From positions 806,001-870,000 of the forward strand of contig NZ_JNLQ01000002.1 of the NCBI RefSeq assembly GCF_000703165.1: DNA of 64,000 nucleotides, given 5' to 3'. The position numbers and the translations under genes were made by a program. Below are positions 10,973-37,115 of this stretch, in pieces. The stretch's first letter is position 1. Every line of letters starts with the position of its first letter. Under the pieces are notes generated by a model, which saw nothing but the letters and a program-made list of their open reading frames with translations, was not told where the DNA came from and did no database searches. The stretch is from Butyrivibrio sp. AE3004 (GTDB lineage Bacteria > Bacillota > Clostridia > Lachnospirales > Lachnospiraceae).

Positions 10973-12892
10973 ATGAAAAAAATACTGATTGTAGATGATG
11001 AAGAGATAATTTTGCGGCTTACGGAAAATGTTCTGAAGGACAAGTATGAGACCCTTTTGGCATCTTCCGGAGAAGAAGCTATCAGAGTTTTTGATGAGTG
11101 CCTGCCAGATCTTGTGCTGTCTGATCTGCAGATGCCCTCTATGTCGGGATATGATCTCCAGAGCATAGTTCACACAGAAATAGATCCTGCAATTCCCTTT
11201 ATTTTTATGACTGCCGATGAGAGTGATGACAGTGAGAGCATGGGGCTTGAACAGGGAGCGGCTGATTATATCAGAAAGCCTGTAAAAGCGGCTCTTCTTA
11301 TCAAGAGAATAGAACGGGTTTTGGATAATGTTGATGAAAACAGACGCCTTAAGGCAGCAGCACAAATTGATGCCATGACCGGGCTTTTGAACAAGGCAGC
11401 GGCAGAGAGTGTTTTAAACGGGATTTGTCTTAAGAAAAAGGGAACGCTTCTTGCTCTTGATCTGGACAGTTTTAAGCTGGTAAACGATCTGTACGGACAT
11501 GATATGGGCGACAGGATACTTATACGATTTGCTGAGCTTATCAAATCCGTTATAAGGAAAGAGGATATTGCGGGACGTATAGGCGGAGATGAGTTCATTG
11601 TCTTTTGCGAAAATCTGACAAATCAGAGTGTAATAGCCGAAAAGGTAGAATTTCTTAATAACGAAATCAATAAATCTGCAAGTGAGTTTGTCGGGAAAGA
11701 TATCGAAATCCCGCTTGGCTGTTCCGGTGGTGCTGTAGAGGTCCCTGAGAACGGAGAAAGCTATTTAAAGCTTTTTGTTAAGGCGGATTCAGCTCTTTAC
11801 AGGACCAAACAGAACGGTAAGCATGGCTGCTCGTTTTATGAAGAAGAGAGCGAAAAGACCTCTGTGAGCAATGTCAGCAGCTTTGATAATCTGAGGATTA
11901 TTTTTAACGAAAGAAATATGGGCCGCGGTGCCTTGAATGCCGATAATGATTCCTTCAGGACAATTTATCGTTTTCTCAATCGCTTTTTAAGCAACTATCA
12001 GTGGGATATCAGAATGGTAATGTTTACGATAGTCACTGATGATGAGAATATAAATGAAATTACCGACAAATTTATTGAACTTGCATCCACTAAATTACGT
12101 GGAAGTGATGTAATTTTAAAATTCAACAAAAATCAGGTCATCATGCTTTTCATGAAGGTAAATGATGAAAATTATACGATACCGATTCTGCGTGTACTTG
12201 GAGCATGGGATAAGGATGGAATACCCGGAGTGGAAATAACCTATGAGGCTGAGAGTATAGACGGCAGAGATCGGGGCGATGATGTTGATAATGAGATAAC
12301 GGAGCAGGTGAAAAGAGAGGAGGAAAAGCTTCCCAAATGGTTTTTCCACGAACCGCTCATTGATATTCATGAGGGCCTTAAGAACGCTGTTACAGCCGAC
12401 TCCTATCTCTCTTCTGTAGACATTTTCCTGGAATATGTGGAAAACAATATAGAGGAGCTCCAAAAGTATATCGACGAGAATGATATTACGAATTATAAAA
12501 TAAAAGTTCACGGAATAAAAAGTACATCAAGAATTATCGGCGCAATGAGGCTTTCTATGATGGCTGCCTCTTTGGAAAGGGCCGGAGTTGATAATAATTT
12601 CAAGTTTATAAAAAGCCAGCATAAGGCCTTCATAGATGAATACAGGCTTTATGCAAAGGTGCTGACAGAGCATATGTATCCAGGCACAAAAGAGAAGATA
12701 TCAGAGGAAAAGCTGATGGATGCCATGACAGCTTTGAAAGAATTTTCCAGGGCAGAGGATTTTTCACTTGTTGAAATGACTCTGGACTCACTGAAAATGT
12801 ATGAACTTCCGCCTGCAGAAGGAGAAAAGATAGCAGAGCTGAAGCATTGTCTTTTAAATCTTGACTGGGATAGAATACATAAACTTCTATAA
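10973..12892 (+). CDS. Response regulator with GGDEF and Hpt domains
   Basis: 639 residues in three parts. Receiver domain at about 1-120 with DD at 8-9 and phosphoacceptor Asp51 (VLSDLQMP). GGDEF domain at about 128-285 with active-site GGDEF and an intact inhibitory I-site RKED five residues before it, so it should make cyclic di-GMP under product inhibition. After a ~200-residue region without a recognised family, a histidine phosphotransfer domain (about 505-639) carries HGIKSTSRIIGA, with the His in the expected place. Start follows AAGGAG. No partner kinase lies next to it. The combination means phosphorelay input and output may meet in one protein. Confidence 0.88.
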   Translation: MKKILIVDDEEIILRLTENVLKDKYETLLASSGEEAIRVFDECLPDLVLSDLQMPSMSGYDLQSIVHTEIDPAIPFIFMTADESDDSESMGLEQGAADYIRKPVKAALLIKRIERVLDNVDENRRLKAAAQIDAMTGLLNKAAAESVLNGICLKKKGTLLALDLDSFKLVNDLYGHDMGDRILIRFAELIKSVIRKEDIAGRIGGDEFIVFCENLTNQSVIAEKVEFLNNEINKSASEFVGKDIEIPLGCSGGAVEVPENGESYLKLFVKADSALYRTKQNGKHGCSFYEEESEKTSVSNVSSFDNLRIIFNERNMGRGALNADNDSFRTIYRFLNRFLSNYQWDIRMVMFTIVTDDENINEITDKFIELASTKLRGSDVILKFNKNQVIMLFMKVNDENYTIPILRVLGAWDKDGIPGVEITYEAESIDGRDRGDDVDNEITEQVKREEEKLPKWFFHEPLIDIHEGLKNAVTADSYLSSVDIFLEYVENNIEELQKYIDENDITNYKIKVHGIKSTSRIIGAMRLSMMAASLERAGVDNNFKFIKSQHKAFIDEYRLYAKVLTEHMYPGTKEKISEEKLMDAMTALKEFSRAEDFSLVEMTLDSLKMYELPPAEGEKIAELKHCLLNLDWDRIHKLL

Positions 12893-12895
12893 TAA

Positions 12896-12930
12896 AAAAG
12901 AGCTCACGTGGTTTTCTACGTGAGCTTTTC
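12896..12930. terminator. Bidirectional terminator overlapping the 3' end of the GTPase gene
   Basis: Stem AAAAGAGCTCACGT / ACGTGAGCTTTT around an 8-base loop with T-runs on both strands. The stop codon and last codons of the minus-strand GTPase gene lie inside the hairpin, so the convergent genes share it. Confidence 0.85.
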
Positions 12931-15624
12931 TCTGATTTCATCTTCTGTTCTTTTTATTTCGTACCAGAAGTCATTTGCTGACATTCTGATAGCTCCGGCG
13001 CCATAAATGATAACCTGCTCTATGGCATCTGATGTGGCAACGGTTACTCTGTTCTTTTTGCTGTATTTATGGGCAGTGCGCTCGATGTACTGATCAGCGG
13101 TCTCAGCCTCCTTTGTGAATACAACGTCAAGGTTGTGGTATTTAAGTACATGCTCGGTCCCTCCCGGAACACGATAGGCATCAAATACGAGTATGACAAT
13201 CTCTCTTCTGTAGCCCTGGAAATTTGAGAGAATATCCATGAGCTTGTCACGTGCTGATTTCATATCATGCTCAGCAAGTTTTCTGAGCTCTTCATTTGCA
13301 TATATTATGTTATAGCCGTCAACGAGGATGTATGAGTTTTCTGGATTTAAGTCCTTTGGAGCCCGGTATTTCTTTTCGGGGGCTTTATTTGCAGCCCTGC
13401 GCTTTCTTTCTTCATCAGCTTTTGCATCATAACGGGGCTTTACCGGTCCGTAGGTTCTCTCGAAAATGCTATCCAGTTCCTGTATTGTGGCATTGTAAGC
13501 TTTTGTTCTTTCCTCGTAGGTCAGTTCCTGTTCTTTTCTTATTTCGTCGGATTTAAAGCTCTGAAGGGCATCACCGAGTCTTGTCAGATCTGTTTCAGAA
13601 AAGGATGTGTTTTTAGACCCTTCCGGTGACCATCCGGTATCAACATGCATATAATCTCGAACTTCGTTCCATGGAATGACGGTGCCTGCACCATGTGAGC
13701 AAAAAACGCTGCCTGTGGGCTGCTCGATATCACGCTCTGGATCATAGCCCTTTTCCTCAATCACGACTTCAGCATTGTGACAGGGCTCGTATCCTCTAAG
13801 AGAGAGATTAAGGCGTCCTCTTCCATGGGTATACGACAGCAGTTCCTTGGCATAGTCATGCAGCTCACTTGCGGGAACGGAGCCGGTTATAACACTGCTT
13901 CCATCAGACATTAAGTCCGGAGGATTAGTTGTACCGCCCATTTTCTGCATATCACTAAGTGCACGCCCTACAGAATCGGAAGGAAGTTCAATAGTGAAAT
14001 CATATACAGGTTCAAGCAGAATGTTTTCAGCCATCATAAGCCCCTGACGCACTGCACGTATCGTGGCTTCACGAAAATCGCCGCCCTCTGTATGTTTTAA
14101 ATGGGATCGTCCGCCTATCATGGTTATTTTCATATCTGTGATTTCGGAACCTGTGAGAATCCCGCGTATTTTGAATTCCTCAAGATGTGAGAGGATAAGG
14201 TTCTGCCAGTTTACCGCAAGGTCATCCACAGGACAATCCGCATTAAAGGAAAGGCCGCTTCCGGGCTCACCCGGCTGTAGCATGAGATGGACCTCTGCAT
14301 AGTGGCGGAGAGGTTCAAAATGACCTACTCCCTCGACGGGTGCCTTGATGGTTTCTTTATAAACGATACTACCGGGGCCAAAGTCAATGTCCAGACCAAA
14401 ACGTTCTCTGCACTGGTGTTTTAGAATTTCCATCTGGACTTCGCCCATGACCTGGATAGAGAGATCGTTTGTTACTTCATCTTTTTTTACCGAAAGAAGA
14501 GGTTCTTCCTCAGACAATTCAGATAACTGCCTGTAAACCTTGAACGTATCGGCTCCTTCAGGAAGAATGATTCTGGATGAAAGAATAGGCTGTAAGAGTC
14601 CTGCCATTTCACCTTTAAGGCTCCCAAGTCCCTGACCTGCATGGGATGAGTCAAGACCTGTTACGGCAATGATCCTTCCGGCAGGGGCTTCCTGCAGGAG
14701 CTCATATTTTTCTCCCGAATAAACCCGTATCTGGTCAACCTTTTCTAAAGAGCTTTCTTCGGTTTGTGAGGTGCCTTTGCCACCAACGGATTTTTTTGAA
14801 AGTGACAGCACGTCGCGTACATGAAGGGTTCCGCCCATAACCTTAATCCAGGATAATCTTGTTCCACCAGGGTCTCTTGATATCTTGTAAACACGTGCGG
14901 CAAATTCCTCCGGATAGGATGGGGGATATGCGTAGGTGTCTATCAGTGATATAAGCTCGGAAACACCCTCCATTTTTAGTGCGCTTCCAAACAGGCATGG
15001 AAACAACTTCCTCTTTGATATGAGGTTTGTGATATCGCTATCTAAGACCTTGTGTCCTTCCTCCAGATATGCGTTTAAAAGCTCATCATCGCAGACAGCA
15101 AGCTCTTCCTGGAAATCATCATCCTCCGGTGAAAACGCTGAAAAATCCAAGGCATGTTCGGAGAGCCTTTTCCTTATATCGGAAATAACTGCGTCCTTAT
15201 CTGCCTGTGGCTGGTCCATTTTGTTTACAAAAATAAAAACAGGTACCTTGTAATGCTCAAGAAGCTTCCACAGTGTCTGAACCTGGGATGTTACTTTATC
15301 AGCTGCACTGATAATGAGAATAGCGTAGTCAAGAACCTTCATAGTACGCTCGGTTTCAGGTGCGAAATCAGCATGTCCCGGAGTGTCCAGGAGTGTGACA
15401 TGAGTGTTCTCTGAAAAATCAAGCTCTGCCTGCTTTGAAAAAATCGTAATACCGCGGCTTCTCTCAAGTGAGTATGTATCAAAAAAAGTGTCGCCGTGAT
15501 CGACTCTTCCGGACTTTCTGATGGCCCCTGAAAGAAATAAAAGTGCCTCTGACAGAGTGGTCTTTCCTGAGTCAACGTGGGCGTATATTCCTATATTTAA
15601 GTTTTTTACCGTATTTTTATTCAT
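12916..15624 (-). CDS. TetM-like ribosomal GTPase fused to a Rae1/YacP-like NYN nuclease
   Basis: 902 residues. About 1-660 is a translational GTPase of the EF-G/TetM class: G1 AHVDSGKTT (about 15-23), switch II DTPGHADF, G4 NKMD, then EF-G-like domains II to V. Residues about 765-902 are a NYN/PIN-like domain very close to the B. subtilis ribosome-associated endonuclease Rae1 (YacP): VDGYNIIYA, VFDAYRV, FTKEAETADQYIE and VATSDAIEQ, with acidic residues near 769, 815, 844 and 866. True tetracycline-protection proteins (about 640 residues) lack this nuclease. A charged linker (about 665-760) joins the parts. Inference: GTPase-driven delivery of an A-site mRNase. No leader peptide or tet-type attenuator is seen upstream. 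Confidence 0.85.
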   Translation of the reverse strand: MNKNTVKNLNIGIYAHVDSGKTTLSEALLFLSGAIRKSGRVDHGDTFFDTYSLERSRGITIFSKQAELDFSENTHVTLLDTPGHADFAPETERTMKVLDYAILIISAADKVTSQVQTLWKLLEHYKVPVFIFVNKMDQPQADKDAVISDIRKRLSEHALDFSAFSPEDDDFQEELAVCDDELLNAYLEEGHKVLDSDITNLISKRKLFPCLFGSALKMEGVSELISLIDTYAYPPSYPEEFAARVYKISRDPGGTRLSWIKVMGGTLHVRDVLSLSKKSVGGKGTSQTEESSLEKVDQIRVYSGEKYELLQEAPAGRIIAVTGLDSSHAGQGLGSLKGEMAGLLQPILSSRIILPEGADTFKVYRQLSELSEEEPLLSVKKDEVTNDLSIQVMGEVQMEILKHQCRERFGLDIDFGPGSIVYKETIKAPVEGVGHFEPLRHYAEVHLMLQPGEPGSGLSFNADCPVDDLAVNWQNLILSHLEEFKIRGILTGSEITDMKITMIGGRSHLKHTEGGDFREATIRAVRQGLMMAENILLEPVYDFTIELPSDSVGRALSDMQKMGGTTNPPDLMSDGSSVITGSVPASELHDYAKELLSYTHGRGRLNLSLRGYEPCHNAEVVIEEKGYDPERDIEQPTGSVFCSHGAGTVIPWNEVRDYMHVDTGWSPEGSKNTSFSETDLTRLGDALQSFKSDEIRKEQELTYEERTKAYNATIQELDSIFERTYGPVKPRYDAKADEERKRRAANKAPEKKYRAPKDLNPENSYILVDGYNIIYANEELRKLAEHDMKSARDKLMDILSNFQGYRREIVILVFDAYRVPGGTEHVLKYHNLDVVFTKEAETADQYIERTAHKYSKKNRVTVATSDAIEQVIIYGAGAIRMSANDFWYEIKRTEDEIREKLT

Positions 15625-26957: not shown

Positions 26958-28809
26958 GATGTGGGTGTCAAAAGTATAGAAACACCCTAAAAATGCACAT
27001 TGATAACTGAATAAAGCTATGTTTTAGTGCTGATCTGCGGTAAAATATTAGTATCAAATCCAGTATTTAACGAGGTTTCAGCCATGTCATTCATCTTAAA
27101 TGATCATCAGCAAGTGTCTCTTTTTGATTCTCTTACATTTCTCTCAGAAAGAAAACAGAAGATGCTTGAAAGTTCATGGGCTCATCAGTTTTCGCAAGAG
27201 ATCTTTGTAAACATCAATGAGATGCTGTTTGCTCCATTATACAGCAGTAGTACCAACTCAAGACCAAACGCTCCAATAAATGTTATCGTTGGCGCAATGA
27301 TGCTTGCTGAGTTCAATGGCATTTCTGAGGATGAGATGATCGAAACCATGGAGTTTGATTTCCGTTATCAGTATGCTCTTCATACTACCAGCTTTGAGAA
27401 GCAGCCAATCAGTGACAGGACTTTCAGCCGTTTCCGTGAAAGAGTCTCAGCTTATGAACTTGTGACTGGTATCGACCTTGTTCATGAGTGTATGGTTTCG
27501 CTTTCTGATCATATCTGCAAGTTCATGGACTTAAACCCTAACATTAGACGTATGGACAGTATGATGATTGAGTCTAACATCAAGAAGATGGGACGTCTGG
27601 AACTGTTGTATACCTGCTTGTCAAATCTTGTAGCAAGCCTTAAACGAGGCGGTTACAATGACAAGATCAAAGGGTTGGAAGCTTATGCGGATCCTAACAA
27701 CAGGAATCGTGTCGTATATTACGAAAAGGATATCCCTCAGTCAGAACGGATTCAAAAAGTAATCGATGATGCGGTCAAACTTCTTCCAACATGTAAGGAT
27801 ACCCATGGAGAAACCACTGACTATCAACTGCTTGAAAGAGCAATCTCAGAACAGACCAAGGATGATGGCAATGGCCATATCATTCCGAAAGATAAAGGTG
27901 AAATGAATGCCACTATTCTTCAGAATCCAGCTGATCCGGAGGCAACCTTCAGAAGTAAGGCTGGTAAAGAGCACCGCGGATATGTAGCCAATCTCACAGA
28001 AACTGTTGGTGAAAATGGATCCATTATCACAGACTACCAGTATGATGTGAATACCAGAAGTGATGCATCATTCATCAAGGAATACATCGACAACCAGGAA
28101 GAATCTCCTGAAGCTATAGCGCTTATAACCGATGGAGCTTATGACAGCCATGAGATAAAAATGCAGGCTGCTAAAAAAGGCATTGCAGTTTTCTCAACAG
28201 GCCTTATTGGTAAACAACCAAATCCTATACTTGCTGAATTTGAGATCACAACTGAAGGTACGGTATCAAAATGTCCTGCTGGAAATGTTCCAAAGAGCAC
28301 TTCTTACATAAAACAGACAAACAGCGCACGAGTATCTTTCACAAGAGAAACATGTGAAAACTGTCCGCACCGATGTGAATGCAATCCGAAGCTGAAGAAG
28401 CGGACTGCCACAATGGTTATATCCTTAAACTCCAGAAAACGTTTGTTAGGATCTTTGGAGATTCTGGATGATGATACCAGAAATAAAATCGGCAGAATCA
28501 GGAACGGTGTAGAGACTTCACCGTCAATCCTCAGAAATAAATATGGCGTTGATAAAATGCCTGTCCGTGGAAAGCTAAAGACAAAATACCGCTTTGGCTT
28601 TAAAGTTGGTGCCCAAAATTTCGCCAAACTGATGCGGTTTATTAAAGGTAAATCGAAATGCCGGGCATTGGTTATGGAATGACGGTAATAAAGGGGATGA
28701 ATATGCTCCTCAATAAGGAAATCTGTCATCAAACATAGTTTTATTCAGTTATCAATGTTCAAAATACATGTCAAGGTCACGTATAAATGTGACTTTTGGC
28801 ACCTACATC
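26958..28809 (+). mobile_element. IS1182-family element, copy 1
   Basis: 1852 bp. Terminal inverted repeats GATGTGGGTGTCAAAAGT and (inverted right end) GATGTAGGTGCCAAAAGT, two mismatches in 18. A second, subterminal 28-bp inverted repeat (26997-27024 with 28731-28758) has one mismatch. Flanked by ATTTTAT (26951-26957, 28810-28816). Appears identical to copy 2 at 35264. Confidence 0.92.
27084..28682 (+). CDS. IS1182-family transposase, copy 1
   Basis: 532 residues from ATG 27084 (MSFILNDH), preceded by GAGG; the upstream GTG at 27027 is less likely. N-terminal DUF772-type domain (about 50-125; RPNAPINVIVGAMMLAEF), a DDE nuclease core with ALITDGAYDSHEIK near 360, and a C-terminal cysteine cluster CENCPHRCECNP near 435. 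No frameshift or stop, so probably active. The product looks identical to that of copy 2. Confidence 0.92.
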   Translation: MSFILNDHQQVSLFDSLTFLSERKQKMLESSWAHQFSQEIFVNINEMLFAPLYSSSTNSRPNAPINVIVGAMMLAEFNGISEDEMIETMEFDFRYQYALHTTSFEKQPISDRTFSRFRERVSAYELVTGIDLVHECMVSLSDHICKFMDLNPNIRRMDSMMIESNIKKMGRLELLYTCLSNLVASLKRGGYNDKIKGLEAYADPNNRNRVVYYEKDIPQSERIQKVIDDAVKLLPTCKDTHGETTDYQLLERAISEQTKDDGNGHIIPKDKGEMNATILQNPADPEATFRSKAGKEHRGYVANLTETVGENGSIITDYQYDVNTRSDASFIKEYIDNQEESPEAIALITDGAYDSHEIKMQAAKKGIAVFSTGLIGKQPNPILAEFEITTEGTVSKCPAGNVPKSTSYIKQTNSARVSFTRETCENCPHRCECNPKLKKRTATMVISLNSRKRLLGSLEILDDDTRNKIGRIRNGVETSPSILRNKYGVDKMPVRGKLKTKYRFGFKVGAQNFAKLMRFIKGKSKCRALVME

Positions 28810-35263: not shown

Positions 35264-37115
35264 GATGTGGGTGTCAAAAGTATAGAAACACCCTAAAAAT
35301 GCACATTGATAACTGAATAAAGCTATGTTTTAGTGCTGATCTGCGGTAAAATATTAGTATCAAATCCAGTATTTAACGAGGTTTCAGCCATGTCATTCAT
35401 CTTAAATGATCATCAGCAAGTGTCTCTTTTTGATTCTCTTACATTTCTCTCAGAAAGAAAACAGAAGATGCTTGAAAGTTCATGGGCTCATCAGTTTTCG
35501 CAAGAGATCTTTGTAAACATCAATGAGATGCTGTTTGCTCCATTATACAGCAGTAGTACCAACTCAAGACCAAACGCTCCAATAAATGTTATCGTTGGCG
35601 CAATGATGCTTGCTGAGTTCAATGGCATTTCTGAGGATGAGATGATCGAAACCATGGAGTTTGATTTCCGTTATCAGTATGCTCTTCATACTACCAGCTT
35701 TGAGAAGCAGCCAATCAGTGACAGGACTTTCAGCCGTTTCCGTGAAAGAGTCTCAGCTTATGAACTTGTGACTGGTATCGACCTTGTTCATGAGTGTATG
35801 GTTTCGCTTTCTGATCATATCTGCAAGTTCATGGACTTAAACCCTAACATTAGACGTATGGACAGTATGATGATTGAGTCTAACATCAAGAAGATGGGAC
35901 GTCTGGAACTGTTGTATACCTGCTTGTCAAATCTTGTAGCAAGCCTTAAACGAGGCGGTTACAATGACAAGATCAAAGGGTTGGAAGCTTATGCGGATCC
36001 TAACAACAGGAATCGTGTCGTATATTACGAAAAGGATATCCCTCAGTCAGAACGGATTCAAAAAGTAATCGATGATGCGGTCAAACTTCTTCCAACATGT
36101 AAGGATACCCATGGAGAAACCACTGACTATCAACTGCTTGAAAGAGCAATCTCAGAACAGACCAAGGATGATGGCAATGGCCATATCATTCCGAAAGATA
36201 AAGGTGAAATGAATGCCACTATTCTTCAGAATCCAGCTGATCCGGAGGCAACCTTCAGAAGTAAGGCTGGTAAAGAGCACCGCGGATATGTAGCCAATCT
36301 CACAGAAACTGTTGGTGAAAATGGATCCATTATCACAGACTACCAGTATGATGTGAATACCAGAAGTGATGCATCATTCATCAAGGAATACATCGACAAC
36401 CAGGAAGAATCTCCTGAAGCTATAGCGCTTATAACCGATGGAGCTTATGACAGCCATGAGATAAAAATGCAGGCTGCTAAAAAAGGCATTGCAGTTTTCT
36501 CAACAGGCCTTATTGGTAAACAACCAAATCCTATACTTGCTGAATTTGAGATCACAACTGAAGGTACGGTATCAAAATGTCCTGCTGGAAATGTTCCAAA
36601 GAGCACTTCTTACATAAAACAGACAAACAGCGCACGAGTATCTTTCACAAGAGAAACATGTGAAAACTGTCCGCACCGATGTGAATGCAATCCGAAGCTG
36701 AAGAAGCGGACTGCCACAATGGTTATATCCTTAAACTCCAGAAAACGTTTGTTAGGATCTTTGGAGATTCTGGATGATGATACCAGAAATAAAATCGGCA
36801 GAATCAGGAACGGTGTAGAGACTTCACCGTCAATCCTCAGAAATAAATATGGCGTTGATAAAATGCCTGTCCGTGGAAAGCTAAAGACAAAATACCGCTT
36901 TGGCTTTAAAGTTGGTGCCCAAAATTTCGCCAAACTGATGCGGTTTATTAAAGGTAAATCGAAATGCCGGGCATTGGTTATGGAATGACGGTAATAAAGG
37001 GGATGAATATGCTCCTCAATAAGGAAATCTGTCATCAAACATAGTTTTATTCAGTTATCAATGTTCAAAATACATGTCAAGGTCACGTATAAATGTGACT
37101 TTTGGCACCTACATC
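35264..37115 (+). mobile_element. IS1182-family element, copy 2
   Basis: 1852 bp, same length, ends and transposase as copy 1. Flanked by ATTAATAT (35256-35263, 37116-37123). I found no difference between the two copies by eye, which points to recent transposition. Confidence 0.92.
35390..36988 (+). CDS. IS1182-family transposase, copy 2
   Basis: 532 residues, same protein as at 27084: DUF772-type N-terminus, DDE core with TDGAYDSHE, cysteine cluster CENCPHRCECNP. Intact and probably functional. Start chosen as for copy 1. Confidence 0.92.
   Translation: MSFILNDHQQVSLFDSLTFLSERKQKMLESSWAHQFSQEIFVNINEMLFAPLYSSSTNSRPNAPINVIVGAMMLAEFNGISEDEMIETMEFDFRYQYALHTTSFEKQPISDRTFSRFRERVSAYELVTGIDLVHECMVSLSDHICKFMDLNPNIRRMDSMMIESNIKKMGRLELLYTCLSNLVASLKRGGYNDKIKGLEAYADPNNRNRVVYYEKDIPQSERIQKVIDDAVKLLPTCKDTHGETTDYQLLERAISEQTKDDGNGHIIPKDKGEMNATILQNPADPEATFRSKAGKEHRGYVANLTETVGENGSIITDYQYDVNTRSDASFIKEYIDNQEESPEAIALITDGAYDSHEIKMQAAKKGIAVFSTGLIGKQPNPILAEFEITTEGTVSKCPAGNVPKSTSYIKQTNSARVSFTRETCENCPHRCECNPKLKKRTATMVISLNSRKRLLGSLEILDDDTRNKIGRIRNGVETSPSILRNKYGVDKMPVRGKLKTKYRFGFKVGAQNFAKLMRFIKGKSKCRALVME

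Follow-up and report, generated by a model that had tools for sequence, protein, structure and literature searches.

In a 64,000-nucleotide stretch of the genome of Butyrivibrio sp. AE3004 (Lachnospiraceae; contig NZ_JNLQ01000002.1, positions 806,001 to 870,000 of the forward strand; hereinafter the window), we analyzed a gene whose product joins a translational GTPase, related to EF-G and the Tet proteins, to a C-terminal nuclease domain of the YacP/Rae1 type. We consider it fairly probable that this protein is a housekeeping Rae1-type endoribonuclease that was lost from its place after rlmB, became joined to an EF-G/Tet-like GTPase with no role in resistance, and acts as a cutter of mRNA in the ribosomal A site. 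The evidence comes from the architecture and conservation of the protein, the fate of the stand-alone yacP gene, and the behavior of the GTPase half in family-level tests and in trees.

The gene (12916..15624, minus strand, stop included) encodes 902 amino acids (aa) in one uninterrupted frame. Pfam profiles resolve the domains typical of EF-G in their usual order, all on the minus strand: a G domain (GTP_EFTU, residues 8-232, 14929..15603; E value of 1.4e-49) with its P-loop AHVDSGKTT, DTPGH, and NKMD motifs intact, domain II (EF-G_D2, residues 241-331, 14632..14904), domain III (EFG_III, residues 345-416, 14377..14592), domain IV (EFG_IV, residues 419-532, 14029..14370), and domain V (EFG_C, residues 536-617, 13774..14019), which ends in a conserved CHN motif. 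These are followed by a C-terminal extension (residues 618-662, 13639..13773) bearing C642, H644, and W652, where the structural model superposes on the C-terminal part of TetM, by a variable linker of low model confidence (residues 663-763, 13336..13638), and by the NYN_YacP domain (residues 766-901, 12922..13329). The original prediction, made from the letters alone, that a single protein combines a GTPase with a nuclease is thus borne out, as is the order of the two; its boundary needs correction, since the nuclease starts near residues 764-766, behind a variable linker roughly 100 residues long. The possibility of a frameshift or of two separate genes is excluded by the single frame in the window and by the fused state of 73 of the 76 readable named loci (80 were fetched and 4 were unparsed); the other three comprise two cut by contig ends and one with a 600-aa frame (L177).

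The C-terminal domain matches NYN_YacP (PF05991) with an E value of 2.5e-46 and 158.1 bits against a cut-off of 24.6. It also aligns over 135 residues (E value of 1.3e-23) with B. subtilis YacP/Rae1, whose entries PDB 5mq8 and 5mq9 are the two solved chains that it matches in sequence comparison; the motifs that had been taken as diagnostic of Rae1 (VDGYN, VFDA, ETADQYIE, and ATSD) fall within this alignment. The B. subtilis protein thus shares with the fusion the NYN domain and its four acidic residues, but its solved chain is 181 residues long, whereas here the domain forms the C terminus of a 902-aa GTPase. Residues D769, D815, D844, and D866 correspond to D7, D53, D81, and D104 of Rae1, confirming the expected match of acidic positions. 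We presume these to be the catalytic residues of the NYN/PIN active site. All four are aspartate in 95/95 fusion proteins of an alignment, A2, composed of the window protein, 25 of the remaining 119 homologues listed, and 69 of the 73 fused named loci; the pattern used to choose these loci demands D or N at residue 769. A further 39 fused rows, assembled largely independently of A2, have aspartate at the four positions in 39, 39, 39, and 38 of 39, respectively; the sole row without D866 has a gap there and is cut by a contig end. The whole-model fold comparison covers residues 3-638, and the NYN assignment therefore rests on sequence. K21 of the P-loop, H84 of DTPGH, and D137 of NKMD are likewise invariant in 95/95 fusions. 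With the active-site positions of both the nuclease and the GTPase so conserved, both halves of the fusion look active.

To place the fusion among its relatives, we used a family sample of 150 genera, with one genome per genus, and a phylum sample of 398 genomes. NYN_YacP was found in 137 genomes of the family sample and was missing from 13. The frame containing it was at least 848 aa in 123 genomes, below 300 aa only in 10, and of intermediate size in 3, with 1 split between contigs; the fusion whose frequency had been in question therefore occurs in 123 of the 150 sampled genera. The GTPase profile matched a frame of at least 848 aa in 122 genomes, and direct reading of the one that it missed (G546) revealed a fusion with a divergent GTPase. 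Among the 10 short-frame genomes, G475 and G430 carry broken or contig-cut fusions, which leaves 8 with true stand-alone yacP. Stop codons occur in 17 of the family NYN matches; 14 of these hold one, as does that of the window protein, where the match overruns the gene end, and G420, G468, and G474 hold more. In the phylum sample, YacP is present in 219 genomes and the fusion in 28. One fused genome (G361) was tallied from its frame length and single YacP match. A search with residues 620-902 retrieved at least 7988 proteins at an E value of ≤1e-3 (7989 scored); all 120 homologues listed carry PF05991 together with EF-G domains, which speaks against a chance arrangement, and the nearest named relatives among the matches listed are from Butyrivibrio. 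Named hosts among the 80 loci include Butyrivibrio, Herbinix, Robinsoniella, Intestinimonas, Anaerovorax, Fusibacter, and Ruminococcus flavefaciens. Two variants depart from the usual architecture: L106 (G512:C43, 361-2430, minus strand) is a 690-aa frame with a G domain and NYN_YacP, matching the GTPase profile at positions 3-396 only, and L098 (G546:C1, 865-3657, plus strand) is a fusion that keeps its NYN domain while its domains II-V are without a Pfam match.

Whether hosts of the fusion lack a separate yacP, a question raised along with the original prediction, can be answered for the window genome, where the fusion is the single YacP match, and for the 28 genomes of the phylum sample that carry the fusion (the window genome among them), each of which has exactly one. 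Second YacP matches in fused genomes of the family sample are contig-end fragments in G427 and G458 and, in G507, parts of a single gene. Ten of the 12 stand-alone yacP genes inspected lie directly after rlmB, with a sigma-factor-like gene (recognized by motif) next in 6 of those. In the window genome, the order at this locus is YgbB (ispF), a Ribonuclease_3-domain gene (mrnC-like), rlmB, 36 nucleotides, and a Sigma70_r2 gene, and none of the frames in this 9.5-kb stretch contains an NYN motif. The rlmB locus was found in 19 of the 20 other fused genomes searched; none of the 19 has an NYN motif there in any frame, and 16 have the Sigma70_r2 gene directly after rlmB, with something else in L213, L214, and L221. 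Thus yacP has vanished from the site that it occupies in relatives, and the fused domain is its only remaining form. In B. subtilis, the gene is in an operon with yacO/rlmB (PMC6613710; here and below, cited papers are represented by excerpts), whereas the fusion lies elsewhere in the chromosome.

The GTPase half resembles TetM and TetO (PDB 3j9y and 4v6v) in its domain order, its G-domain motifs, and its C-terminal extension past domain V, and these proteins lead its PDB sequence matches. However, against the NCBIfam tet_protect equivalog (cut-off of 775 bits), the fusion scores 411.9 bits and two fused relatives score 421 and 448 bits; TetM-type control rows reach 819 and 876 bits. Unfused relatives (402-457 bits) and other TetM-like rows (453-702 bits) stay below the cut-off as well. 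The tip of domain IV (residues 504-518, 14071..14115, minus strand) reads GGRSHLKHTEGGDFR in the fusion versus YGLYYSPVSTPADFR in TetM; the YYSPV of TetM is missing, and SPV is found at the tip in 0/95 proteins of A2. Pro509 of TetM, said in the excerpt to sit in the drug site (PMC8161019), is replaced by K510, with lysine in 94/95 fusions, and the position of EF-G H573 is taken by H508, with histidine in 92/95. The tip sequence alone is not decisive, because a triple mutant of the loop III tip of TetM can remain active (PMC4750697). In the GTPase tree described below, the fusions and their unfused sisters fall into a group of their own with 52 rows (95*), to which neither of the two TetM rows belongs, and the fusions further differ from TetM/TetO in the added NYN domain. 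By the tests run, then, the fusion does not appear to be a tetracycline ribosomal-protection protein: with a subthreshold score, lysine in the place of Pro509, and a position outside the TetM clade, the label "ribosomal-protection" is not supported in its tetracycline sense. The expectation that standard annotation would call such proteins tetracycline resistance proteins holds in part: among the matches listed, 7 of 25 named relatives are called TetM, TetW, TetO, or TetS, and 18 have other names (8 are "translation factor GTPase family protein" and 10 are NYN-domain, PIN-domain, or GTP-binding proteins).

Neither is the GTPase half a typical EF-G. It shares the EF-G domain order, and in the fold ranking of the model EF-G stands above TetM, which appears at row 38 of 50. 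In contrast, the EF-G equivalog TIGR00484 gives 270.2 bits against a cut-off of 659.4, the alignment is interrupted at EF-G residues 162-217, a stretch to which only 14 residues of the fusion correspond, and the fusion adds the C-terminal extension and the nuclease. The host genome also encodes two EF-G-sized proteins, with frames of 709 and 702 aa. Of the 123 family genomes with the fusion, at least 10 (G401, G423, G434, G450, G455, G470, G504, G514, G539, and G546) have an extra match of 643-644 aa scoring 361-382 bits, as do G065 and G131 in the phylum sample; the TetM-type controls L083 and L084 are of this size and score 361 and 378 bits with the same profile. Apparently, tet(M)-type genes, candidates by size and profile score, were acquired on top of the fusion.

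The GTPase tree (62 rows; a quick method with no bootstrap) places all 39 fused rows in one clade (Shimodaira-Hasegawa-like approximate likelihood ratio test value of 99), with 12 unfused GTPases as its sister (94); one more unfused row, L077, branches just outside, and the TetM-type and TetM-like rows lie apart. This tree omits the divergent L098, L106 (which lacks domains IV-V), and three pieces cut by contig ends (L052, L062, and L065), and the rows counted as fused include L085 (G430), whose NYN domain is in a second, overlapping frame. In the nuclease tree (71 rows, leaving out L085, L098, L100, and two duplicate stand-alones), the fused domains join stand-alone YacPs of the same family (98/99), with other stand-alones outside. 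The fusion most likely arose once, in an ancestor of these Clostridia. The unfused GTPases (L071-L076 and L087-L092) are about 650 aa where whole, L092 being a shorter frame, and most of them share the CHN tail and the domain IV tip of the fusions; the three that were scanned (L071, L076, and L089) fall below the tet_protect cut-off. With every candidate of each genome scored, the unfused sister GTPase accompanies stand-alone yacP in 6 of 8 family genomes and occurs in 0 of the 13 without YacP (P = 0.0005, relatedness ignored); the phylum GTPase scan covered 3 candidates per genome, and the family scan for long frames and extra matches covered 8. The link between the unfused GTPase and yacP is suggestive. 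The stricter idea that the GTPase and YacP are always found together was weakened, as it holds in the family sample and not in the phylum sample.

Full-length unfused relatives terminate with the conserved C-terminal extension (e.g., VPWDEAEKYMH), at the point from which the linker of the fusions continues. In A2, the distance from W652 to D769 ranges from 76 to 160 residues, with a median of 102. The linker is variable throughout, except for a short conserved motif at residues 716-731 (13432..13479, minus strand; ELDSIFERTYGPVKPR), with E716 in 90/95 and I720 in 92/95 proteins. C642 and H644 are invariant in 95/95. A general metal site formed by C615, H616, C642, and H644 was considered and rejected, as several relatives on a different branch have Y or F at 642 and different residues at 644.

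The architecture itself has been known since 2015, when Tet proteins with an acquired YacP-like NYN RNase domain were reported from ten clostridiales species and a new mode of resistance was suggested for them (Atkinson 2015, PMC4342817). Those proteins are like the present one in combining a Tet-type GTPase with a YacP-like NYN domain in a clostridial host. They are treated there, as far as the excerpt goes, as Tet proteins, whereas the GTPase half of the present protein did not pass any of the Tet tests applied; and in place of ten species we find the fusion in most sampled genera of the family, as its host's only YacP. The present work adds that stand-alone yacP is missing, that the fused GTPases form a single clade with an unfused sister, and that the GTPase half falls short in the Tet tests. 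No other publication on the fusion was found, as judged by titles and abstract openings, with subscription papers mostly outside the scope. The paper of Leroy on Rae1 reportedly dates from 2017, after the 2015 report on the Tet-NYN proteins.

B. subtilis Rae1 is described in papers that cite the work on it as performing ribosome-dependent cleavage of mRNA in the A site. Building on this, the GTP-bound fusion protein would most likely dock at the factor site of ribosomes with an empty or blocked A site, whereupon the C-terminal extension and flexible linker would carry the NYN domain to the decoding center, where it would cut the mRNA. GTP hydrolysis would then free the factor from the ribosome, and the cut message would pass to rescue by transfer-messenger RNA (tmRNA) and to decay; tmRNA is present in the host genome. 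We infer ribosome binding, the order of these events, and the coupling of GTP hydrolysis to cleavage. The Rae1 domain and domain IV would compete for the decoding site, so that they probably act in turn. A bolder version, which we advance only tentatively, has the protein as a GTP-powered, self-delivering A-site nuclease that senses the stall, exchanges domain IV for Rae1, cuts, and leaves: a housekeeping no-go-decay or rescue machine replacing free Rae1 in most of the family, its function being served in sister lineages by separate GTPase and Rae1 pairs.

Several observations weigh against the reading that we favor. Since the linker is long and of low confidence, the model does not fix the position of the nuclease. 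No conserved gene neighborhood hints at a pathway for the fusion, the commonest cluster, with CheY-like regulators, being found at 12 of 76 loci. The nuclease tree neither shows nor rejects a single fused clade (approximately unbiased test, P = 0.44). L106 retains its G domain and NYN domain with no Pfam match to domains IV-V, and the domain IV tip of L098 is degenerate; these two variants fit the exchange of domains and fit loose tethering equally. In the phylum sample, there is no association of the sister GTPase with YacP (4/6 versus 187/364; P = 0.69), YacP being absent from 2 of the 6 genomes with the unfused sister, and in the family sample the sister gene of G479 is a short frame matching profile positions 3-510 only. 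Finally, many genomes, including G402 and G451 in the family, have stand-alone yacP without the GTPase, and Rae1 therefore does not need it.

Some of these points could be explained if the fusion were a matter of convenience, an EF-G-like accessory factor and an ordinary Rae1 sharing only expression and ribosome targeting, with cleavage not gated by GTP. The long and variable linker, the genomes with yacP and no GTPase, and the relative that lacks domains IV-V but still has NYN would all be accommodated. Nevertheless, the descent of the fused GTPases as one clade, the retention of the fusion in 123/150 genera, and the conserved motif within the linker make us regard it as rather unlikely. Still less probable is the combination of tetracycline resistance with an RNase accessory suggested in PMC4342817, in which the GTPase would clear the drug as TetM does and the nuclease would deal with drug-stalled messages. 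The sequence matches to TetM/TetO, the alignment of the model with TetM up to its C terminus, and the activity of the loop III triple mutant (PMC4750697) would agree with it. Yet it is opposed by the scores of 412-448 bits where controls exceed 775, the lysine at the Pro509 position, the separate clade, and the single-copy presence in most sampled genera, which is unlike an acquired gene, as well as by the additional TetM-sized, TetM-scoring genes beside the fusion. A maturation factor, docking on ribosomes or subunits by its GTPase and trimming rRNA or tRNA with its NYN domain, would suit the usual neighbors of yacP, a gene for an rRNA methylase and one with a Ribonuclease_3 domain. Both neighbors have roles in rRNA processing. 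A maturation role for YacP-like NYN domains is quoted as a proposal in PMC4342817, but the later Rae1 literature, in excerpts, describes A-site mRNA cleavage, and we give the idea little credence.

A housekeeping Rae1 joined to a nonresistance GTPase, which we favor, bears on how Rae1-type nucleases reach the A site, as the nuclease here comes attached to a ribosome-type GTPase, no free copy remains, and the attachment persists in most of the genera sampled from a large family. A further implication is that some proteins named TetM, TetW, TetO, or TetS may be translation factors and not resistance determinants and that the unfused related GTPase is a candidate partner of stand-alone Rae1.

In the window, the fusion gene converges with a plus-strand gene (10973-12892) for a protein with response regulator, GGDEF, and Hpt domains, with 23 bases between their ends. 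Farther along are two identical transposase genes with DDE_Tnp_1_6 and DUF772 domains (27027-28682 and 35333-36988, plus strand), which agree at 1656/1656 bases and share their orientation, with about 6.6 kb between them.
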